Source of the DNA: a virus | Length of the DNA: 51,731 nt | Direction: 5' to 3' (one strand) | Virus record (IMG/VR): IMGVR_UViG_3300009024_000018 | Coordinates: 1 to 51,731 of that record | Part shown: piece after piece, positions 913 to 45,274 of the stretch | Numbering within the stretch: the stretch's first letter is position 1 | Layout of the letters: each line of letters opens with the position of its first letter | Translations under genes and position numbers: made by a program | Notes under the pieces: generated by a model | What the model saw: the letters and a program-made list of their open reading frames with translations, nothing else | Databases searched by the model: none | Told to the model about the DNA's origin: nothing

Positions 913-1221
913 TTAGAACACTAGGAGATCGGGTAACTTGGGTGGCGAAATGAACCAATCGGATGAGTCAATCACTTGACCATTTAGTACAGGCTCGAAT
1001 TTGAATTGGCAAACATCTGCATTTGCTATGCCGTTGACGCGTTCGCGTGTGGTGGGTGTGTTCCAACCTGCAAGCGACCATTTGACCAAGCCGTCAGCGT
1101 CACGCTTGACGATAGCGTTACCATGCAACCAAACGGTCTGACCGTCCGTGCGTGTATTGCCCACCTTTAAGGATGTGCCTTGATTAAATGCTTGCTTAAT
1201 TTGTTGTGTTACTTTTCTCAT
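913..1221 (-). CDS. conserved phage hypothetical protein (TTRERxNG type), 102 aa
   Basis: A 102-residue protein with a central block GNTRTDGQTVWLHG followed by SLAGWNTPTTRERVNG. I recognise this pattern from small hypothetical proteins of many phages and prophages, where a GW..TTR.R.NG core is conserved, but no function is established. It has no membrane segment. It has its own promoter upstream and a strong terminator downstream, so it forms a one-gene transcription unit within the small-gene array. Confidence 0.75.
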   Translation of the reverse strand: MRKVTQQIKQAFNQGTSLKVGNTRTDGQTVWLHGNAIVKRDADGLVKWSLAGWNTPTTRERVNGIANADVCQFKFEPVLNGQVIDSSDWFISPPKLPDLLVF

Positions 1222-1259
1222 GATGTTATTATAGTATAGTGTTTAAATGATAGAGTCAA
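1222..1259 (-). promoter_or_regulatory. sigma70-like promoter of the gene starting at 1221
   Basis: Minus strand: TTGACT (1254-1259), 17 bp, TACTAT (1231-1236), 9 bp, ATG. A perfect TATAAT also lies 6 bp before the ATG but would need a 20-bp spacer to the same -35. Confidence 0.7.
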
Positions 1260-24202: not shown

Positions 24203-24712
24203 ATGACAAACGAAATGAATGAAACCAAGGCCGACTCAAGCTATAAAAAAGTAAAATCAGAGCTTTTTCATATTTGGAAAAAAGCCAGACTGCTTTACGA
24301 TATGATCACCGAAGAAAAAGACCTGCACGATTCGGTAAAGAAAAATATCACTTCTGCGTACGAAGCTATTGATGAATCTATAAGATATATTGAGTATGAT
24401 GAGATATTCCCGAATAAAAAAGAGGAAACCCGGGAAGATAATGAAAATAATTTTTTAACAAATCAGGACAAAAGGTATCCTGTGCCAGTCAATTCGGAAA
24501 GCGGCGATCAGTTTGTTACGAGATGCATTTTAGACGCTAATATGAAAAAAAGATATCCAGTGCAATCAGACAGGTTTCAGGCATGTATGCAAGTATTTAA
24601 CTCAACTAAGGACCAGCCTAATTTAAGCCGAAATCCTGGAGAGAAATTTGAAGATCCCATGAATCCTAATTCTCCAGAAATCAACGACCCAGTTAAACCT
24701 CTTCTTCCTTGA
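24203..24712 (+). CDS. hypothetical protein, 169 aa
   Basis: A 169-residue, mainly helical protein. Residues 1-80 are charged helices (SYKKVKSELFHIWKKARLLY, EEKDLHDSVKKNITSAYEAI). The second half contains two related segments, DKRYPVPVNSESGDQFVTRC and KRYPVQSDRFQACMQVF, which look like a short internal repeat (K-RYPV ... D-F...C), then a Pro/Asn-rich tail. Similar R-YPV...C motifs occur in phage proteins of unknown role. It is last in the plus-strand block and overlaps the convergent ClpC-type gene by 20 bases. Confidence 0.55.
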   Translation: MTNEMNETKADSSYKKVKSELFHIWKKARLLYDMITEEKDLHDSVKKNITSAYEAIDESIRYIEYDEIFPNKKEETREDNENNFLTNQDKRYPVPVNSESGDQFVTRCILDANMKKRYPVQSDRFQACMQVFNSTKDQPNLSRNPGEKFEDPMNPNSPEINDPVKPLLP

Positions 24713-27158
24713 TTTTATAAACAACCTCTCCTTTAATAAAGGAGAAACTTATTGACTGATTCTCTGTAAGTTCTTTATTTAAAAGAAGGGTTGATAGTTT
24801 GTTTTCTATATTTTTTTGAATCAATCTTTGTATTGGCCTTGCTCCCATTTTTTCCTTCTCTGCTTCTTCGGATATATACTTATTCAAGGAGGGGGTTAGG
24901 GATATTTTTATATTTTTATATATAAGTTTTTCTTGTAATTTATGTATTTCTAGCTTTGTTATTTTTATTAAGTCACCTATGTTAAAATTATCAAACATAA
25001 CTATCTCGTTCAGTCTATTTAAGAATTCAGGCTTGAAGAAAACTTTCAATTCTTCCTTAAGCTTATCTTTAGCATGAGATGCCGAATGCCCGAAGCCTAT
25101 TGAAGGTTTTGTGATTTTTTCGCTACCCACGTTTCCTGTAAGTATAATTATACAATTATTAAAATTAACCTTTCGGCCTGAGTTGTCCGTTAGGAAGCCC
25201 TCTTCAAGAATTTGCAATAATATGTTTAATACGTCTGGGTGAGCTTTCTCTATCTCGTCGAATAGCACCACACTGTATGGGGTTCTTCTTACTTTTTCAG
25301 TTAACTCTCCGCCCTCCTCGTATCCCACGTAGCCGGGGGAGGCTCCAACCAGCCTGCTCGCAGAAATTTTCTCTGAGAATTCGCTCATATCCAATTGGAT
25401 AAGCTTGTCTTCTCCTCCGTATACGAATTTTGCAATGCATTTTGCAGTATGAGTCTTGCCTGTTCCGCTCGCCCCAACCAGCAAAAAACTTCCAACTGGT
25501 TTCTTAGGATCCTGAAGGCCAGATTTTGATCTCAGAATCGATTCGGAAATCTCATCAATAGACTCTTTTTGACCAATAATTTTTTTATTTAAACCCCCAG
25601 CTAGAGAAAGAAGCTTTGAGGATTCTTTTGTGGACATTTGAGTTACAGGCACACCCGCTCTCGCTGAGATCACCTCAAATATATCTCTTTTTGTTACTTG
25701 TATTTTAGATTTTATAGTCTTTTTGGCCCACTTCTCTATTACTCTATCATATTCTTCCAATAAAAAAATCTGCTCATCTTCGATCATACCTTTCGAAGCC
25801 CCAATCATTTCGACATTAGCTTCCCTAATGCTTAGATCTTCTAGCTTTTTCTCTATTTCTTTTGCCGCATCGGGTCTTTGTATATTTTTTATTTTAACTT
25901 TAGATCCAGCTTGATCCATAACATCTATCGCCTTGTCTGGGAATTGTTTATCAACCATATACCTAGACGTTAATTCAATAATTAAATCAAGAGTCTCTTC
26001 TGGGTAATTTATACTGTGAAACTGCTCGTATTTCTTTTTTATGCCTAAAAGAATTTGTTTAGTTTCTTCCTTGTTTGGTTCGTTAACTTTTACTGATTGA
26101 AACCTTCTATCTAAGGCTCCGTCCTTAAGTATGGTTTTCTTATACTCGTCTTGGGTTGTAGCTCCAATACATTTTAACTCCCCCCTTGCCAGCAAGGGTT
26201 TGAGCATGTTTGCAGCGTCCATTGAGCCTTCTGCCGCTCCAGCCCCAACGAGGGTATGTATTTCATCGATAAATAGGATTATATTTTTATTTTTTTTAGC
26301 CTCATCTATGATGTTTTTCAGCCTCTCTTCGAACTGTCCCCTATATTTAGTTCCAGCTATTAAAGACCCTAGGTCTAGAGAATATATCACCTTCGCTAAT
26401 AAAAAATCAGGAGCTTCAGCTTTTACTATTCTCTGAGCTAAACCTTCAACTATAGCCGTCTTACCAACGCCTGGCTCACCTAATAAAACGGGGTTGTTTT
26501 TAGTTCTTCTGCATAAAATTTCACACACACTGCTGATCTCTTCTTTTTTCCCTATTATGTCGTCAAACTTTCCTTTCGAAGCTAGAGAGTTAAGGTTTAA
26601 TGCGTGTTTCTCTAGGTTTTGTAGGCTAGTATCCTTCACCTTGGGTTTTGGTGGAGAGTAATAACTTTCTTTTTTGTGGTTTGTGTTTTCTTTAGATAGA
26701 TGCAAATATTCTCTTACCTCTGATATGATATCTTCTTCTGAAGCATTAAAAGATTTGAAGAAACTAGGTATGGGCGAACCTTCGAATTTTAATAACGCTA
26801 GCAACATATGTTCTAGCCCTACATATTCGTGATCTAATTTTTCGCTTATTGATGCTGAAACTTTTAATATTAAATGAAATTCTTCATCGAAAGAAGGGTC
26901 TATGTCCGATTCGATCGAAAACCCTGCAGTATCTAAGCTCTGAGAAAAAGAGTCTTCTATCTCGTCTTTTAGCGCGATTTGGTCAATATTCAATAAGTAT
27001 AGTATCTCACTAAGTATTCCTGCATTTAATTTTACCATTCCGAAGAATAGATGGTCTATGCATACAAATTCGCTGTTATATTTTTTTGCAACTTTCTTGG
27101 CTTCATTTATCGCTTGCTGCGCACGTGGCGTAAAGTTAGGTTTTGGCGTCATCTTCAT
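24693..27158 (-). CDS. ClpC/ClpA-type AAA+ unfoldase with ClpP-docking loop
   Basis: An 821-residue protein: Clp_N repeats (1-150), AAA1 with GEPGVGKT (227-234) and FIDEIHTLVGAG, a short middle part (about 425-500), AAA2 with GASGTGKT (562-569) and LFDEIEKAHPD, and the D2-small domain to the end. The middle is too short for the long ClpB coiled coil. Residues 687-689 are IGF in a Ser-rich loop, the place of the [LIV]-G-[FL] tripeptide by which ClpA/C/X dock onto ClpP. It could thus redirect the host ClpP protease; no ClpP is in the window. It has its own GTGTA motif four bases before the ATG. Confidence 0.93.
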   Translation of the reverse strand: MKMTPKPNFTPRAQQAINEAKKVAKKYNSEFVCIDHLFFGMVKLNAGILSEILYLLNIDQIALKDEIEDSFSQSLDTAGFSIESDIDPSFDEEFHLILKVSASISEKLDHEYVGLEHMLLALLKFEGSPIPSFFKSFNASEEDIISEVREYLHLSKENTNHKKESYYSPPKPKVKDTSLQNLEKHALNLNSLASKGKFDDIIGKKEEISSVCEILCRRTKNNPVLLGEPGVGKTAIVEGLAQRIVKAEAPDFLLAKVIYSLDLGSLIAGTKYRGQFEERLKNIIDEAKKNKNIILFIDEIHTLVGAGAAEGSMDAANMLKPLLARGELKCIGATTQDEYKKTILKDGALDRRFQSVKVNEPNKEETKQILLGIKKKYEQFHSINYPEETLDLIIELTSRYMVDKQFPDKAIDVMDQAGSKVKIKNIQRPDAAKEIEKKLEDLSIREANVEMIGASKGMIEDEQIFLLEEYDRVIEKWAKKTIKSKIQVTKRDIFEVISARAGVPVTQMSTKESSKLLSLAGGLNKKIIGQKESIDEISESILRSKSGLQDPKKPVGSFLLVGASGTGKTHTAKCIAKFVYGGEDKLIQLDMSEFSEKISASRLVGASPGYVGYEEGGELTEKVRRTPYSVVLFDEIEKAHPDVLNILLQILEEGFLTDNSGRKVNFNNCIIILTGNVGSEKITKPSIGFGHSASHAKDKLKEELKVFFKPEFLNRLNEIVMFDNFNIGDLIKITKLEIHKLQEKLIYKNIKISLTPSLNKYISEEAEKEKMGARPIQRLIQKNIENKLSTLLLNKELTENQSISFSFIKGEVVYKIKEEEV
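24727..24745. terminator. palindrome at the convergent junction (weak bidirectional terminator?)
   Basis: TCTCCTTTA-A-TAAAGGAGA, a perfect 9-bp stem with a one-base centre. It lies inside the 3-prime end of the ClpC gene, just past the stop of the plus-strand gene. No good T-run follows on either strand, so termination is uncertain. Confidence 0.3.
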
Positions 27159-27172: not shown

Positions 27173-29734
27173 TTACTTAACTTCAGACATTTTCATATAT
27201 ATCTTTTCGTCCATAATCTTAATAGAGTCTAGGAATATTATATCTTCAGCCTTTCTTCCATAGGCTATTACAATATTCTTTTTTGCTGGCGCTTTTTCAT
27301 TTTTTTCAAAATACCTATCATAGAAATTTCCCCTTCTTGAGTTCAATAGCATTGCGTCCCATTTTCCATTTTCGTCAGACATTGAAAGCTTTATGTATTT
27401 ATTTCCATTTCTTGATGTAGCCTTTAAGCAATCATCAACTACTCCTATAAATTTACCACCATCGTCTTTGTCCATAAGCTCAAGATCTCTTGAATCTTTT
27501 AAGTCTTTAAAAACGTCTTTAAAACAGTTTTTTAATTTTGAACTATGGCTGTATCCTAGCAATTCATTTTCAAAGTACCAATTAGCAAACTTTTCATAAG
27601 ATTTGTTTTTATCATAAATAGATTTATAAAGATCATATTTCTTTTTGAAAGTTTTAAACCTAGACTCTTTCATCAAGGGCTTTCCGTCGTCCCCGACCAA
27701 CTCTTGGCTTTTAGCGTCAGCTATACAATTTAATAATTTATGATCGTACTTTTCTCCAAGAAGTATGAAATTTCTCTTTTCCCTATCTGTTAGAAGATTA
27801 AATGCTTGAGCTTCTAACGCCATTAAGGATCTGTTTGGGCCTTTGCTTTGGAGAGCTCCAGCCTGACACAAAGCCGATAGTATTCCTATGTTAAGCCCCG
27901 CTTGTTTCGCCGCCAAGAAAATATCGTATTTTGTTGGGGTCTCGCTAGACCTAAAGTCCCTAAGGGATTGCAAAGACTTTTCGCTAACGCCTTTGACGCT
28001 ATTAAGTCCAAACCTTATATCTTTCCCTTCCGTGGAGAAGTCCATTTTGGATTTCGCTAAATCTGGAGAAAGCAATTTGATTCCAAAATTAGATAATTCC
28101 CTTGATATAGACGCTATTTCTTCTTGTGGTGCTGGTTCGTACTTAGTCATCTTCAGCAAAGACATGAAAAACTCTTGTGGGTAATTAAATTTAAGATAAG
28201 CGGTCCACGCCGCTAACGTTGCGTATGCCAATGAGTGGGATTTGTTAAAAGAATAGTTTGCGCTATCTTCCGCAACTCTCCACAAAACTTCTCCAACTTC
28301 TGTTGGTAAATCGTTTTCTATTATTTTTTGCTGAATTTTAGCCTTCCACGCAGGCATTTGGTCAACTTTCTTTTTGCCAACGATCCTCCTTAATTGCTCG
28401 GATTCGTCTAAGGTAAACCCAACCTTAACTGCCATCTGCATTAATTGCTCTTGATAAAGAGGTATTCCTCCAGTATAATCCAAGACGTCCCTAAAAAATT
28501 CATGAATTACTTGAGGTTCTTCTGTTTCAGAGTATTTAACGTAAGCATCTAAGAAATCTAAAGCTCCCGGTCTTCCGATAGCGACCACAGCACTCAACTG
28601 CTCAAGGCTCTTTGGCTTGATTTTTTTACAAACCTTAAAGTTTGTATCTGATTCAAGCTGAAATAATCCATGAGGAGTTTTCAAGGACTGTAAAGGCTTG
28701 AATATTTTTGGATCATTAAGGTTCATTTTGGATATGTCTTCCCCGATAGTTTTGCATACATCATAAATAACGCTTAAGGTTCTTAATCCAAGAATATCAA
28801 ATTTAACCATTAATTCTGATACCCAGTTCATGTCGTAACCCGTGACTAAGTTTCCGTCATGTGTTTTTTGAACAGGGCAAATGTCCGTTATAGTGCTGTG
28901 AGAAATAGCTATTCCGCTAGGATGCACTCCCGTGTTTTTGTTTAAACCTTCAATCTTTAATGCGATTTCGAAAGTCTCTGGATTTTCAGAAGCCCAATCT
29001 GCAAATTTTTCGCTTTCTTGTACCGCAGAAAGCAGCGGAAGTACTACTCCAAATTTTTTAGGTATTGTTGAACTAACCAAATTAACATCCTGTTCGCTAA
29101 GTTCTCCTACTATCTTGCCACATTCCTTGACGCATAACTTGCCGCTTAAAGTGTTAAGGGTTAATATTTTAGCCGTTCTAGAGGGGTGCTTCCTTTCGAT
29201 GTATTCTATAACTTCAACTCTTCTTTCGTAAGCTATGTCATTATCAACGTCAGCAAGAAGACTTCCGTCCAAAAATGTCACTCCGTCTTGAATAGTTTTC
29301 TTTGCTCGACTTTTAGAAACAAATCTCTCAAAAAACAGGTTGTATTTTACTGGGTCAACATCTGTAACGCCAATTAAATATAGCACAAGAGACCCCGCCG
29401 CTGACCCTCTTCCTGGCCCGGTAGGAATGTCTTGTTCGTGGCAAAAATTAATTATATCCCAGTTTAATAAAATATAATCTATAAATCCCAACTCTTCTAA
29501 TATCTTTAATTCTGACTTTGCTCTATCGAAATAATCTTTCTTATTTTTAAACTTATCTATTCCTTTATCGTAAACCCCTTTGTGGCAAAGTTTTCTAAGA
29601 AAGTCAAAGTTGGATATTTTATTATCCGCTTCAAGCATATCGTAATATTTCTGCTCTATTTGAATTTCTGGAAGGCGTACCCCTGGAGGGCAGCAATCTT
29701 TATACTCTGTGAACTGTTGTGTAAAGCTACTCAT
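27173..29734 (-). CDS. dnaE: DNA polymerase III alpha, polymerase core without PHP domain
   Basis: An 853-residue DnaE core that begins where normal DnaE leaves the PHP domain: the first recognisable text, PGVRLPEIQIEQKYYDMLE, matches the palm entry. The motif GPGRGSAAGSLVLYLIG (about 106) is present, and so are the three catalytic aspartates: Asp164 and Asp166 in DVDND and Asp313 in VKFDILGLRTL. About 15 residues between FERFVS and ADVDND differ from the usual NPERVSMPD region. Fingers, helix-hairpin-helix and an OB-fold (about 750-845) follow. The missing PHP domain is encoded at 30867-31634. The start at 29734 is chosen for its ATGA overlap with the exonuclease gene; ATG at 29749 is an alternative. 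Confidence 0.93.
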   Translation of the reverse strand: MSSFTQQFTEYKDCCPPGVRLPEIQIEQKYYDMLEADNKISNFDFLRKLCHKGVYDKGIDKFKNKKDYFDRAKSELKILEELGFIDYILLNWDIINFCHEQDIPTGPGRGSAAGSLVLYLIGVTDVDPVKYNLFFERFVSKSRAKKTIQDGVTFLDGSLLADVDNDIAYERRVEVIEYIERKHPSRTAKILTLNTLSGKLCVKECGKIVGELSEQDVNLVSSTIPKKFGVVLPLLSAVQESEKFADWASENPETFEIALKIEGLNKNTGVHPSGIAISHSTITDICPVQKTHDGNLVTGYDMNWVSELMVKFDILGLRTLSVIYDVCKTIGEDISKMNLNDPKIFKPLQSLKTPHGLFQLESDTNFKVCKKIKPKSLEQLSAVVAIGRPGALDFLDAYVKYSETEEPQVIHEFFRDVLDYTGGIPLYQEQLMQMAVKVGFTLDESEQLRRIVGKKKVDQMPAWKAKIQQKIIENDLPTEVGEVLWRVAEDSANYSFNKSHSLAYATLAAWTAYLKFNYPQEFFMSLLKMTKYEPAPQEEIASISRELSNFGIKLLSPDLAKSKMDFSTEGKDIRFGLNSVKGVSEKSLQSLRDFRSSETPTKYDIFLAAKQAGLNIGILSALCQAGALQSKGPNRSLMALEAQAFNLLTDREKRNFILLGEKYDHKLLNCIADAKSQELVGDDGKPLMKESRFKTFKKKYDLYKSIYDKNKSYEKFANWYFENELLGYSHSSKLKNCFKDVFKDLKDSRDLELMDKDDGGKFIGVVDDCLKATSRNGNKYIKLSMSDENGKWDAMLLNSRRGNFYDRYFEKNEKAPAKKNIVIAYGRKAEDIIFLDSIKIMDEKIYMKMSEVK

Positions 29735-30378
29735 ACTTCTATTTCCCATATCATTTTTTTAAAAACTTCATAATTAACTCTAATATCATATAATGCGTCA
29801 TGTAATTTCGTTGCGTCGAAAGGAACATCAAAGTCCTTACAGCATTGTTTAAGGTTACAGGACAAGCCTCTTTCTATTAAATGGTTCAATCTATACTGCC
29901 AAGATAGGAAGTCGTCTTCGTTGTTTAATTTAATTTGTTTCTTTAAGGCCTTTGCTAAAGAAAGAGTGTCTACTAAGTTATCCATGTATGAAAAATCTGA
30001 TTTCGCTTTCGGGTTAATTAGTTTTCTGTGAAGATTGTGCATGTATACGTCAAACCCTAATAAATTGTGCCCCACTTTAACGTAAGAATCATCATAAAGG
30101 TATTTTTCAAAATCGTCAAGAGCTAATTGGGGGTCCACAGCATTCTTTTTGTATTTTGCTTGAGTGAATCCTGTGATTTTTGCAGCTTCCGGAGATACCC
30201 TCAAGTCGTCCCACTTAAGCCAGTAATCTTTTTCTTCTACAATTTTATTGTTTTCTATAACAAGAAAGGCTAATTGCCATGGTTTATTGTGTCCCGAAAT
30301 TAAATTTAAATTACATGTTTCGTAATCGAAAAGTAAATATTTTTGTTTATTTTTAAATCTGAGTAGCTGTTCCTTCAT
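29731..30378 (-). CDS. DEDDh 3-prime to 5-prime exonuclease (proofreading type)
   Basis: A 215-residue DnaQ-like exonuclease. Exo I: LLFDYETCN (Asp18, Glu20). Exo II: VGHNLLGFDVYMH (Asp110). Exo III: KLHDALYDIR (His193, Asp198), giving the DEDDh set. Such proteins remove misincorporated nucleotides for the replicase. The gene lies between the SET-domain gene (26-bp overlap) and the polymerase core (4-bp overlap), inside the split DnaE operon. In bacteria epsilon binds the PHP domain of alpha, so co-expression of PHP, exonuclease and core from one mRNA makes a three-part replicase plausible. Confidence 0.9.
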   Translation of the reverse strand: MKEQLLRFKNKQKYLLFDYETCNLNLISGHNKPWQLAFLVIENNKIVEEKDYWLKWDDLRVSPEAAKITGFTQAKYKKNAVDPQLALDDFEKYLYDDSYVKVGHNLLGFDVYMHNLHRKLINPKAKSDFSYMDNLVDTLSLAKALKKQIKLNNEDDFLSWQYRLNHLIERGLSCNLKQCCKDFDVPFDATKLHDALYDIRVNYEVFKKMIWEIEV

Positions 30379-30877
30379 GGTTTTTCCAATATTGTTCTCC
30401 GTAGTTTATTAATAATTCTTCTCCTTTTTTTATTTCTTTATTTGCTGTGTATTCAAATATCATATTTTTAATGTCAACTTCATAGTTTATATTATTGTTT
30501 TTTGCGTGGTTATATATCATTCCGTTTCCGAGTACTGTCGCTGAATTAAAAAGCTTGTTTATATCTGCGTATCCCAAGTCTTCTAAAAAGTTTTTTAAAT
30601 GCTCTGTAATTTCTTCATCTTCGAATATAGAAAGAAGCTCGATCTTGAAGGAAATCTTTTCGTTTTCTTCTTTGGATAAATTCTTATCAAAAAATATATT
30701 AAATGCAAACCTTGCCAGCTCTTTATCTTGCATTTCCCGCATGCATCCAGAAACTATAAAGTGGCACTGCTCTATTAACTCTCCTTCTTTGATGTCTTCT
30801 GCCGCAAAAACACCTCTGCCTTTAATTTTTGATTTATCAACATATATCTTATTTGGCTGTATTAGTTTATGCTTCAT
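30353..30877 (-). CDS. SET-domain protein (putative lysine methyltransferase)
   Basis: A 174-residue stand-alone SET domain. The start is GRGVFAAEDIKEGELI (20-35). The end holds the catalytic and SAM-binding signature: NGMIYNHAKNNNINYEV (pseudoknot NH motif, 119-135) and IKKGEELLINYGEQYW (149-164, GEEL-x-x-x-YG). I set the start at 30877 because GGAAGGAGC lies eight bases before that ATG; the frame is open further upstream inside the PHP gene. SET proteins methylate lysines. Here the gene sits between PHP and exonuclease genes of a polymerase operon, so a replisome or host protein may be the substrate. The substrate is unknown. Confidence 0.88.
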   Translation of the reverse strand: MKHKLIQPNKIYVDKSKIKGRGVFAAEDIKEGELIEQCHFIVSGCMREMQDKELARFAFNIFFDKNLSKEENEKISFKIELLSIFEDEEITEHLKNFLEDLGYADINKLFNSATVLGNGMIYNHAKNNNINYEVDIKNMIFEYTANKEIKKGEELLINYGEQYWKNHEGTATQI

Positions 30878-31634
30878 TTTTTTGCTCCTTCCAGCTTTCA
30901 AAACAAAACTCATTGCTTCCAAAATGATCCAAGTTGGGTTTTGATAGGGTTTTATTTCCAAAGGTTCTTCCTGTAATGCACTTATATGTTTGGAGCGCAG
31001 ACACATCTTTCTTCTTTCTATAATAAATGCTTTTTACCATTTCTGTTTTGCATTTGCTTTCTTCTGCGAATTTAATAACTCTAGATCTTAATAACAGATC
31101 AAATGGCAAGCTATTATTTTCTATAAAATATACTGGCTTTGTGAAAGAAAAGTTGGGCGTGCAGTTCGAGAATTTTATATTATTATTAAATATAAACGAA
31201 TCATAAAAAGGAATTGCTAATATTAATTTTTTATTATCCCAGTGTTTTTTCAACATCTTTTCATCTACTGAATTAAATGCTTCTGAGTAAGCTTCGCTGT
31301 ATATCGAATTTAATAACTTACATCCTTCGGAGTTCTTTGCGAAAATAACTATCTTGTGTCTGGATTTTACAGATTCTTCCTTTGGGTTTAGTTTTGAGTC
31401 TTCACACATGTCGATCCTTAATCCAAACACCAATTTTACCCCTATTAACTCAGACACTTTTTTTGCTTGAAGGAAGCCTGTTAGGGAATCTTCCACCAAT
31501 ACGACCTCTTTTAAGTTGTTGTCTTGAGCTATGGAAAAAACACTATCTGTTTTGCCGTCATCTAGTGATGATGGATTATTTAGCGTTAATATACTTTTCC
31601 CAATTGAGAAATGGCTTTTGAATAATGGTATCAT
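30867..31634 (-). CDS. stand-alone PHP domain of DNA polymerase III alpha (degenerate metal site)
   Basis: A 255-residue protein that follows the DnaE N-terminal PHP domain from end to end: LFKSHFSIGKSILTLNN in place of the HLHVHSEYS motif, VVLVEDSLTGFLQAKKVSEL in place of the ALTDHGNMYG motif, then GVKLVFGLRIDM (usual G-KPI-GCE) and HKIVIFAKNSEGCKLLNSIY. The metal-binding His and Asp residues of active PHP domains are mostly gone (only His8 remains in motif I), so it is probably structural, for example as the docking site for the exonuclease. It is first in the polymerase operon behind a strong promoter, and its stop overlaps the SET gene start. Confidence 0.82.
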   Translation of the reverse strand: MIPLFKSHFSIGKSILTLNNPSSLDDGKTDSVFSIAQDNNLKEVVLVEDSLTGFLQAKKVSELIGVKLVFGLRIDMCEDSKLNPKEESVKSRHKIVIFAKNSEGCKLLNSIYSEAYSEAFNSVDEKMLKKHWDNKKLILAIPFYDSFIFNNNIKFSNCTPNFSFTKPVYFIENNSLPFDLLLRSRVIKFAEESKCKTEMVKSIYYRKKKDVSALQTYKCITGRTFGNKTLSKPNLDHFGSNEFCFESWKEQKNEA

Positions 31635-31641
31635 GTAGAGT

Positions 31642-31670
31642 ATTTTACCAGAATTTCATTAAGTTGTCAA
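31642..31670 (-). promoter_or_regulatory. strong sigma70-like promoter of the split polymerase operon
   Basis: Minus strand: TTGACA (consensus -35, 31665-31670), 17 bp, TAAAAT (five of six, 31642-31647), 7 bp, ATG. Drives PHP, SET, exonuclease and dnaE core. Confidence 0.82.
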
Positions 31671-31686
31671 TACTAAATTCATAAAC

Positions 31687-31710
31687 AAAAAAACCGCTAA
31701 TAGCGGTTTT
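31687..31710 (-). terminator. intrinsic terminator after the DUF1501 gene
   Basis: Stem ACCGCTA / TAGCGGT with a minimal loop (31693-31707), followed on the minus strand by seven T. It ends the nrdB-DUF1501 unit before the polymerase promoter. Confidence 0.88.
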
Positions 31711-31726: not shown

Positions 31727-33028
31727 TTATTTACTAAGTATGTCAAGCAAAGGCTTTCCGTCGTGAGCCACCTTGAACGGCCTGCCAGAAGGAGATGTTT
31801 GTATTTCTTCCAGGGGTAGACCCATTGCGTATGCTATTGTAGCATTTAGGGAAGCTGGGTCAATAAATTTTCCCTCTGCTGGGTTTCTTCCCAGATCGTC
31901 CATTTTTCCGTAAACCGTCCCCCCTTTGATTCCTCCTCCTGCGAGAAAAGCTGTAAATCCATAGGGCCAATGATCTCTTCCGTCGCGCTTGTTTATCTTA
32001 GGCGTCCTGCCAAATTCTGAGGTTAAAACAACCATGGTTTCTTTAAGTAATCCCCGTATTTCGAGATCAATTAAAAGAGCGCTTAGAGCTTTATCTATAT
32101 CTGCGCAATTATTTGCGACCGCCTCAAAGTTGTTGTCGTGAGTGTCCCACCCTCCCCTGCTTACCTCTACATATCGAACTTTGTTTTCTACTAATCGACG
32201 AGCGAGTAAGCAACCTTGTCCAAAATTTGTTTTTCCATAAAGTTGATGCATAGACTCTGGTTCTTGAGATATATCAAAAGCTTTTAAGTCTTCGCTCCTC
32301 ATTAATTTTAGAGCATCTTTGTACAAATCAGAATAGGCTCTAACCTGCTTTTGGTCGTATTGGTTTAAATAAGCTGCGTTCATTTTTTGAGCCACCGCCA
32401 GCCTTCCACCGAAACGGCTTTCATCTAAGTAGCTTGCAACTTTGCTGTTTGCTAGTCCCGCAGAAGGATTTCCAATTGGAAGTGGGCCATGCCTGGATTC
32501 AAGAAAGCCTGCTCCCGCTGGACTCGCGCCAATTTGAACGTTCATTGGGAGGGTTTGATTTATACTACCAGAAAGCTTAGATACCCAACTTCCAAATGTA
32601 GGGTGAGCAATTGTTCCTCGCTTTAGATAGCTTGTATGCATTAAATAACTAGCTTGTTCGTGAGCCCCTTGGCTTGATACCATTGTCTTAATGACTGCCG
32701 CATTATGCATCTGTTTTGCTGTTTTTGGTAAATGCTCTGAAAGTAAAATTCCGTCTGCAGAAGTTGCAATTGACTTGGTCGGCCCCTGTATCTCTGTAGC
32801 TTCTGGATTTGTTCCAAAGGTATCTAGGTGAGACATAGCTCCAGACATATTAAGATATATTATATATCTCGCGCTCGCAGCTCTAGCGCCAACCTTAAGA
32901 GCATTAAGTTCATTATGCACATAAGAACCCGCCATGGGAAGCAGGCCAACACCAAGACATGCTTTTGCAGCACTAGCAACAAATTCTCTCCTACTTAGCT
33001 CATCTAATTTTAGTATTTCTGATTTCAT
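31727..33028 (-). CDS. Tat-exported DUF1501 protein
   Basis: A 433-residue DUF1501 protein, a family found mainly in Planctomycetota, Verrucomicrobiota and some others, related to alkaline-phosphatase/sulfatase-type enzymes. A twin-arginine signal opens it (LSRREFVASAAKACLGVGL, Arg13-Arg14, with a hydrophobic core to about 33). Conserved blocks follow: MSGAMSHLDTFGTNP, ATSADGILLSEHLPK, EVSRGGWDTHDNNFE, LTSEFGRTPKINKRDGRDHW and FLAGGGIKGGTVYG. It is exported folded, probably to the periplasm. It lies 8 bp after nrdB in the same transcription unit and has a terminator behind it. It is a host-type gene and very unusual in a phage; the substrate is unknown. Confidence 0.9.
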   Translation of the reverse strand: MKSEILKLDELSRREFVASAAKACLGVGLLPMAGSYVHNELNALKVGARAASARYIIYLNMSGAMSHLDTFGTNPEATEIQGPTKSIATSADGILLSEHLPKTAKQMHNAAVIKTMVSSQGAHEQASYLMHTSYLKRGTIAHPTFGSWVSKLSGSINQTLPMNVQIGASPAGAGFLESRHGPLPIGNPSAGLANSKVASYLDESRFGGRLAVAQKMNAAYLNQYDQKQVRAYSDLYKDALKLMRSEDLKAFDISQEPESMHQLYGKTNFGQGCLLARRLVENKVRYVEVSRGGWDTHDNNFEAVANNCADIDKALSALLIDLEIRGLLKETMVVLTSEFGRTPKINKRDGRDHWPYGFTAFLAGGGIKGGTVYGKMDDLGRNPAEGKFIDPASLNATIAYAMGLPLEEIQTSPSGRPFKVAHDGKPLLDILSK

Positions 33029-43728: not shown

Positions 43729-45239
43729 ATATTCGGGAGCTCATCTAAGAAACCTTCAACCGCGCCAACGCCTTCCGAGTTTAAATTGTCAACAAGATCT
43801 TGTAAGTCGCCCTTTTCTTCAATGCCAAAATTCTCCATATGCAGGTTTACATAGTTATTTCTTTTTGTTCCGTCCGGCATTTCCACGGGTTGAAGAGCCC
43901 TGTGGACGTCCCTACCTAACCATCGGTATTTTAGGGATATTAATTTGTGGGTTCCAAAATCTTCCGGCTCGGATTGTATCTCATCCATAGTCTTTTTTCT
44001 AAGCAAAAACAAATGGGAACAAAATTGAGTTATTTGATCAGACAGGGAGACAACGCTCTCGTCGTCAACTATGTTATCTGAGCTTCTGTTATTTGTTATA
44101 CCTAATCTATTACTCTGCACGCTGGTTAGCATCGACACTGTAGGGCCTTCGCTAAAGCAAAGTTCTTTTTGTATTAATTGTTTAAACTTATCGACCATTC
44201 TACCAACGGTTTCCCAAGAGCTTAAACCGTTTTGTTTTTCATAAGAGGTTTTAATGTAGTCAAAACTAAATATCATCTTGTTTCCCCTGCCCACCTCAGA
44301 GAAATAAAACCTTCTTATAATATTGATCATGCTTTCTATCGAGTGCCCTGCTACGTTATAATAGAAGAATTTAAAATCCTTGACCTTCTTCCAAGTATCT
44401 CTTACTTTATCTATTACTTCTTGGCCCGCCTGCCTCCATCTGCCCGTCTCCAACAAATGCATGGGAACTCCGGATAGAGCGGAGCATTGCCTTACAATAA
44501 GCTCTTCTTTACTCATCTCGCCATTGTCAAAATGAAGGATAGGTACGTTGTTATTGATTGCAGAGACTTTTGTGCAGAAATCCATACAAAATTGCGTTTT
44601 ACCTACTCCAGCCCTAGCCACAACAACCGTAATGTTTCCAGGTCTAAGTAGCGATCCGTAGCACTCATTTATTCTTTTGTGTGGCCCCATTAGCCCGAAT
44701 TCATCGATAGGGTTGTTTCCTCTATCCTCAATCCAGTCTTCCATATCGTCAAAAAGGTTTTCGGGGTTACTTGAACCTATCTCGTAAAGATTGATTTTTT
44801 CATTGTATATTTTATCTGCCTCAGATACTATTTGATCGTAGGTTGAGCTAGCAGAAATACTTTTCATGCTTTTTGCGACATCTATAGATGCGTCGTGAAT
44901 CTCCCTCCTAACTGTAATTTTTTTTAATTCTTTAGCCGCCTTAACAACCCCTTCTTTTGATATTTGCCTCATTGACAAAGCTTTAATATAATCGCCAATA
45001 TTTATATTATCTTCGAAGGACATACCTAGAGATTTAACCCTTTGCGATAATAAAACTTCGTCTAAGATTTCAGAAGCCTCTAGGGACTGACGAAGTACGC
45101 AGAATATTGTTTTATTAACAGCTGTGTTTTGGGAGAAGAAATCGTCTTTAGTTATAAAGGCTGCAATTAAGGGGTAGGACTCTGGGTATTTAATTAACCC
45201 TGCGAGCAAATGTTGTTCTAGTTCATATGAATATACCAT
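43725..45239 (-). CDS. dnaB: replicative DNA helicase, DnaB family
   Basis: A 504-residue helicase. The N-terminal domain (1-110, YSYELEQHLLAGLIKYPESY) is the primase/loader-interacting part. The RecA-like motor has Walker A ARAGVGKTQF (about 208-217), HFDNGEMSKEELIVRQ, Walker B-like FSFDYIKTSYEKQ and a sensor TSVQSNRLG. It unwinds DNA at the fork and is followed by the primase gene (four-base overlap). The promoter in front has the 17/6 spacing seen for several other genes. Confidence 0.93.
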   Translation of the reverse strand: MVYSYELEQHLLAGLIKYPESYPLIAAFITKDDFFSQNTAVNKTIFCVLRQSLEASEILDEVLLSQRVKSLGMSFEDNINIGDYIKALSMRQISKEGVVKAAKELKKITVRREIHDASIDVAKSMKSISASSTYDQIVSEADKIYNEKINLYEIGSSNPENLFDDMEDWIEDRGNNPIDEFGLMGPHKRINECYGSLLRPGNITVVVARAGVGKTQFCMDFCTKVSAINNNVPILHFDNGEMSKEELIVRQCSALSGVPMHLLETGRWRQAGQEVIDKVRDTWKKVKDFKFFYYNVAGHSIESMINIIRRFYFSEVGRGNKMIFSFDYIKTSYEKQNGLSSWETVGRMVDKFKQLIQKELCFSEGPTVSMLTSVQSNRLGITNNRSSDNIVDDESVVSLSDQITQFCSHLFLLRKKTMDEIQSEPEDFGTHKLISLKYRWLGRDVHRALQPVEMPDGTKRNNYVNLHMENFGIEEKGDLQDLVDNLNSEGVGAVEGFLDELPNI

Positions 45240-45245
45240 AATAGA

Positions 45246-45274
45246 ATGGTATCACACATGAATAAAAATGTCAA
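45246..45274 (-). promoter_or_regulatory. sigma70-like promoter of dnaB
   Basis: Minus strand: TTGACA (45269-45274), 17 bp, TACCAT (45246-45251), 6 bp, ATG at 45239. The -35 contains the TGA stop of the gene at 45271-45549. Confidence 0.72.

Follow-up and report, generated by a model that had tools for sequence, protein, structure and literature searches.

In this study, we analyzed the viral record IMGVR_UViG_3300009024_000018 (51,731 bases, the whole record, hereafter the window) and found that its DNA polymerase III alpha is divided at the boundary between the PHP domain and the palm. The PHP domain is encoded as a protein of its own and the catalytic core by a separate downstream gene, and a SET-domain gene and a DEDDh exonuclease (EXO) gene lie between them. 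The observation itself is confirmed: the PHP/palm split is real, the PHP protein has lost its metal site, and EXO and core are intact. We consider it quite probable that these genes represent the replicase operon of a large clade of uncultured tailed phages, in which PHP is kept as a free structural subunit that docks again on the core. Assembly of the replicase in trans appears well supported by the genomics of the related loci. The window also encodes a DnaB-like helicase, a primase, UvsX, a Cas4-like exonuclease, a ribonucleotide reductase and a terminase, and this combination of terminase and replication genes indicates a tailed phage; the record is classed as linear and is thus probably a fragment. 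The genes lie on the minus strand and are given here in the order of transcription.

31634-30867, minus strand: PHP domain of DNA polymerase III alpha as a free-standing protein, metal ligands lost, 255 aa
30877-30353 (start approximate), minus strand: SET-domain protein (Pfam), probably an accessory cargo gene in the PHP-EXO junction, 174 aa
30378-29731, minus strand: DEDDh 3'-5' exonuclease (Pfam RNase_T) without C-terminal tail, 215 aa
29749-27173, minus strand: DNA polymerase III alpha core with palm, thumb, fingers, HHH and OB, without PHP and apparently without the C-terminal domain, 858 aa; a later ATG at 29734 gives 853 aa

An earlier note on this DNA had described four overlapping open reading frames (ORFs) with one common promoter, including complete SET and DEDDh exonuclease genes between the two halves of alpha. 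All four were present where it had placed them, and both intervening genes were confirmed by Pfam matches. PHP and SET overlap by 11 bp, SET and EXO by 26 bp, and EXO and core by 19 or 4 bp, depending on the start of the core. The core had been given as 27173-29734 with 853 aa, which holds for the later ATG, and the full ORF extends to 29749. The true start of SET lies at about 30877 instead of 31006, and the ATG at 30877 has GGAAGGAG on its 5' side.

Comparison of both pieces with DnaE-type profiles, a check proposed in the same note, revealed that they are colinear, PHP first and core second. Residues 28-250 of PHP matched positions 61-293 of the DNA polymerase profile phrog_405 (1.6e-13) and residues 30-833 of the core matched positions 330-1073 (2e-164); in a profile-profile comparison against nine aligned DnaE proteins, the two pieces aligned to template positions 11-254 and 293-1045, respectively. 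Colinearity with one polymerase profile suggests that both derive from one ancestral chain. The Pfam PHP match of the PHP protein falls just below the Pfam cut-off, phmmer with the single sequence against the PDB returned chance matches only, and the family profile gave only a weak PolC match in the PDB; sequence searches alone were thus insufficient for the fold, and structure comparison was needed. The AlphaFold model of PHP, built with 83 relatives, reached a pLDDT of 90.7. In a Foldseek search of the PDB, its first 18 matches were Pol III alpha chains or an alpha-epsilon chimera (E 2e-10 to 3e-7), with a best TM-score against Pol III alpha chains of 0.75 of the query, and the first other PHP protein was the free PHP phosphoesterase 3o0f (1e-4). 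Profile match, profile alignment and structure therefore agree on a DnaE PHP domain, as had been proposed, and not on another family.

Active PHP nucleases carry nine metal ligands in the motif HHDHEH[C/H]DH (PMC12926913). The window protein retains none of them in the profile alignment, where the replacements read H>L, H>K, D>E, H>D, E>R, H>K, D>S and H>Y; the Cys ligand position, placed near PFYDS, is the least secure of the nine. Loss of the ligands was general among 32 diverse PHP relatives. The metal site had been called largely lost; its loss stands, with the correction that the motif is gone at all aligned positions. PHP would thus no longer bind catalytic metals. The protein is nevertheless under purifying selection, with a ratio of nonsynonymous to synonymous substitution rates (dN/dS) of 0.02-0.16, and it carries conserved motifs that are absent from DnaE PHP domains: LFKSHYSIGKSIL, VEDSLTGF, PFYDSF and KSIYY.

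The core contains the Pfam domains DNA_pol3_alpha, finger and HHH_6 in order. D167, D169 and D318, invariant in 27 relatives, align with the three DnaE aspartates that we take to be catalytic, so that the predicted retention of all three was borne out. The structure model of the core matched 7pu7/3e0d with a query TM-score of 0.70 and includes the OB fold. Profile phrog_405 runs about 117 positions beyond the core match, which suggests that the C-terminal tau-binding domain is missing, and no QxxLF-type clamp motif was evident by eye in the core loop before the OB fold. In EXO, D18, E20, D110, H193 and D198 (DEDDh) are invariant in 23 relatives, the best PDB matches are a PolC-type exonuclease and epsilon, and the protein ends where the exonuclease domain ends in all 23 aligned relatives. 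Both genes are strongly constrained, with dN/dS of about 0.015-0.03 for the core and 0.01-0.045 for EXO. With DEDDh kept in EXO and the metal ligands lost from PHP, proofreading is most likely performed by EXO. Apart from this, the core polymerases at L038:7251-10583 and L122:216-3263 have an N-terminal extension, which in L038 is an in-frame fusion of about 250 aa with the look of a PD-(D/E)XK nuclease by eye and no Pfam match.

Searches of viral contigs found relatives in 160 stretches with the core, in at least 476 with the core alignment and in at least 565 with the PHP alignment; the best 80 of each list yielded 126 distinct sequences for PHP and 130 for the core. Across 121 distinct loci, the order PHP, EXO, core on one strand was kept without exception. 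Wherever a locus held a complete PHP ORF (232 loci, 225-285 aa), PHP was a separate ORF, fused to the core in none. All 221 core loci whose upstream sequence spanned 2.6 kb or more had PHP and EXO, and all 222 PHP loci followed by 3.5 kb or more of sequence had EXO and core, some of these loci sharing a contig. That the split could be a sequencing or assembly artefact or a decayed gene is suggested only by its broken-gene appearance; with the same anatomy in more than 120 distinct sequences and dN/dS far below 1, the probability of this is negligible. A split intein or frameshifting that would restore a single chain from the two pieces is also highly improbable. A split-intein DnaE is known from cyanobacteria (as cited in PMC3919608), but no intein domain was found at the junction with Pfam. 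An intein would also have no space, as the PHP fold extends to residue 254 of 255 and the core fold is preceded by no more than about 15 disordered residues. Frameshifting is impossible in the many relatives whose two pieces are separated by other genes, over as much as 1.8 kb. Several contigs of the clade (L241-L247) sit in metagenome-assembled genomes labelled Woesebacteria, Halobacteriovorax, Verrucomicrobiales, Flavobacteriaceae and Lokiarchaeota; these phages were probably mis-binned, and such labels therefore give no host.

The cassette appears to be the only replicative polymerase of these phages. A complete dnaE elsewhere in the genome had been named as a finding that would speak against the split replicase, and no second C-family gene was present in 24 related contigs, in each of which PF07733 occurred once. 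PolA, PolB (PF00136) and DnaN were not found in 16 contigs of 112-211 kb, which may themselves be incomplete. We considered whether PHP has left the replicase for another job, for example as a regulator or a binder of host factors, while the core works alone. The lost metal site and the private conserved motifs would fit such a role, but PHP stands next to the core in every locus, is the first gene of the same operon and keeps a DnaE-type PHP fold; moreover, PHP is reported to be universal in C-family polymerases (PMC12926913) and structurally needed (PMC3666897). We regard such a departure as unlikely. Taken together, the fixed co-occurrence, the DnaE-type fold, the purifying selection and the lack of any other polymerase found indicate that PHP is most likely an in-trans part of the only replicase.

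We therefore favor the reading introduced at the outset, a replicase built from separate parts. An ancestral single-chain DnaE-type polymerase would have been cut in the PHP-palm linker, with a DEDDh exonuclease gene now sitting between the halves, and PHP would have been kept as a free structural subunit after loss of its metal chemistry. It most likely docks again on the core at the place that it holds in single-chain DnaE, where it could stabilize the polymerase and hold the proofreading exonuclease. We infer the physical assembly, the scaffold role of PHP and the docking of the exonuclease from the features described above. Several points weigh against this model. First, PHP evolves faster than the core and the exonuclease. 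Second, E. coli epsilon attaches to PHP through a C-terminal tail that EXO does not have, so that this established mode of docking is excluded for the phage enzyme, which must dock in another way. Third, all related contigs are uncultured and classed as linear, and many are thus fragments. The N-terminal LLR[F/Y] motif of EXO is invariant, and together with the conserved PHP motifs it offers candidate docking elements. A more specific version, in which PHP, EXO and core form an obligate heterotrimer and the former metal pocket of PHP has been rebuilt as a dock for the tail-less EXO with its LLR[F/Y] motif, is a tentative proposal that we hold to be possible, with the balance somewhat against it. 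If true, it would be a second route for coupling proofreading to a C-family polymerase, one without an epsilon tail, a DnaN clamp or tau.

These loci may also bear on a broader question, as PHP is reported to be present throughout the C-family polymerases, inactive forms included, and the reason for its retention is not fully resolved. A clade in which PHP has been separated, its chemistry lost and its gene retained in every locus examined amounts to a natural domain-separation experiment, in which the scaffold function could be assayed by omitting or restoring one small protein. In addition, with about 1,330 residues, this C-family replicase is compact and would be suited to structural work.

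The SET gene has a different standing. It had been proposed that the SET enzyme methylates one of the replicase parts, and a four-part reading, in which SET is functional too and modifies PHP, exonuclease or core, can point to its position inside the operon with overlaps, to a protein that passes the Pfam SET cut-off and keeps, at the sequence level, the NH and Y motifs that mark enzymatically active SET proteins, to the closest solved relative, PBCV-1 vSET, and to purifying selection, with a dN/dS of 0.06-0.22. The target of vSET, however, is a host histone and not a polymerase. Moreover, SET occupied the PHP-EXO junction in just 17 of the 121 distinct loci; this junction was empty in 71 and carried different or unassigned sequence in 33. 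Inserts between EXO and core were seen in 28 loci, and 48 loci were free of inserts at both junctions. No SET domain was present anywhere in 11 of the 16 large contigs. The other junction inserts included IMPDH/GMP reductase-like (18 proteins), JmjC/cupin-like, cupin, HNH and nuclease-like genes. Both junctions of the cassette are thus insertion sites, and with SET rare and unrelated genes at the same junction, the most fitting reading of SET is cargo, with a host protein as its conceivable target. A role as modifier of the replicase was therefore not supported, and we judge the four-part reading quite unlikely; of the four-gene order that was searched for in viral contigs, PHP, EXO and core proved fixed and SET did not.

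The cargo itself was varied. A GMP reductase/IMPDH-like nucleotide-pool gene lies in the PHP-EXO junction of L035, L041, L042, L049, L050, L051, L061, L070, L105 and others. A JmjC/cupin-like hydroxylase gene (L046:6503-7375 and L070:5502-6383) takes the place that SET has in other phages, and it is possible that this is another protein-modifying enzyme carried as cargo. The only SET match among phage records was at about 692210-692581 of LR756501.1, a 735-kb uncultured phage genome that was deposited twice (29% identity).

The cassette shares several features with the bacterial Pol III core (DnaE and DnaQ), including the order of palm, thumb, fingers, HHH and OB, the three catalytic aspartates, the PHP fold and a separate DEDDh exonuclease. 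In contrast, the phage PHP is a protein of its own, the phage EXO has no C-terminal alpha-binding tail, and the phage core has apparently no tau-binding domain and no evident QxxLF motif (by eye), with no DnaN in the related contigs. E. coli Pol III likewise pairs an inactive PHP with an exonuclease acting in trans. According to Barros et al. (2013; PMC3666897), mutations in PHP destabilize the E. coli enzyme, and inactive PHP domains correlate with exonucleases that act in trans, a pattern to which the phage combination of inactive PHP and separate exonuclease conforms; the importance of the epsilon C-terminal tail for PHP binding was described as well (PMC3666897).

Split phage polymerases of this family have been observed before. 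Iyer et al. (2021; PMC7824862) described jumbo phages of group 2.2 whose minimal C-family polymerase is also in pieces, but there the split lies inside the catalytic domain, between NTP-binding and Mg/DNA-binding parts, the pieces are far apart, and a family B replicase is present; here, the catalytic core is whole, PHP is detached, all lie in one operon, and this is the only polymerase found. In Microbacterium phage Erudite (Krampusvirus), the adjacent genes gp55 and gp56 encode PHP and core, cut near the same linker; this phage differs in an intact PHP metal site, in having no exonuclease gene between, and in a core that belongs to another clade. Cellulophaga phage phiST (gp044/gp045), Rossellomorea phage phiT1 (gp20/gp18) and Mycobacterium phage MrMiyagi (gp83/gp84) encode a DnaE-like polymerase in two nearby genes, but the first piece, of 525-600 aa, comprises PHP and part of the catalytic domain, and the cut thus lies elsewhere. 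Wifcevirus WFC encodes its C-family polymerase as a single chain, with the gene of a DEDDh-type exonuclease immediately upstream. The statement that no replicase built like this had been described accordingly needs narrowing: a split Pol III alpha is known (PMC7824862; PHP and core of Erudite), and the specific build, a fixed cassette of PHP, exonuclease and core with an inactive PHP as the only polymerase of a large clade, was not found in the literature searched, outside of which lie many subscription papers.

In a tree of the palm-to-finger regions, the clade formed one group (100/100) on a long stem. Krampusvirus, with PHP and core also as separate genes, was placed elsewhere with strong support, so that the split in Erudite was independent and splitting between PHP and palm occurred at least twice; the deep joins of the tree are weak, and long branches meet there. 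Two records were set aside during these comparisons: MT836709.1, tried as a distant relative, has bacterial-looking DNA in which the PHP site is intact and the polymerase frame is broken, and the Acinetobacter phage MD-2021a record looks like a bacterial chromosome.

Three further features of the window flank the cassette.

31642-31670, minus strand: sigma-70-type promoter, TTGACA-17-TAAAAT, whose -10 box follows a TG; distance to the PHP ATG, 7 nt
31690-31710, minus strand: terminator-like hairpin, which would stop the upstream DUF1501 transcript ahead of the operon promoter
24693-27158, minus strand: ClpA/B-like AAA+ ATPase directly 3' of the core, a conserved neighbor for which no part in the replicase is claimed

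The shared near-consensus promoter that had been claimed was therefore recovered, and it is conserved: most relatives have it 6-8 nt ahead of the PHP start codon. Promoter scores of at least 10 of 12 were obtained for 68 of 104 PHP starts, against 3 of 112 for EXO, 9 of 129 for the core and 10 of 600 random 90-mers. Promoters of this class occur in the window at 31632-31670, 45237-45274 and 1219-1259 (-), and the distance from the end of their -10 box to the ATG is 5-8 nt, or somewhat more in the case of 1219-1259. The strict form was found at 96 distinct places in the related loci, each of them where an ORF of at least 60 aa begins (baseline, 19% of ATGs), and with duplicates kept it occurred 181 times versus about 7 in shuffled DNA; the genes behind it were mainly PHP, NrdB and DnaB. 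The spacing between promoter and ATG suggests that transcripts begin at the ATG and are leaderless, which implies a putative conserved class of leaderless sigma-70-like promoters for replication genes. Where opposite-strand genes interrupt the cassette, in L038/L207 (the same contig) and L048, EXO has its own such promoter.

Among the neighboring genes, the ClpA/B-like AAA+ gene comes next after the core at almost every locus and is only 458-502 aa long in the clade of L052, L056 and L058 (noted for L052-L059). The DUF1501 gene (31727-33028 in the window) adjoins the replicase operon; many relatives also have DUF1501, in varying position and with two copies in L026.

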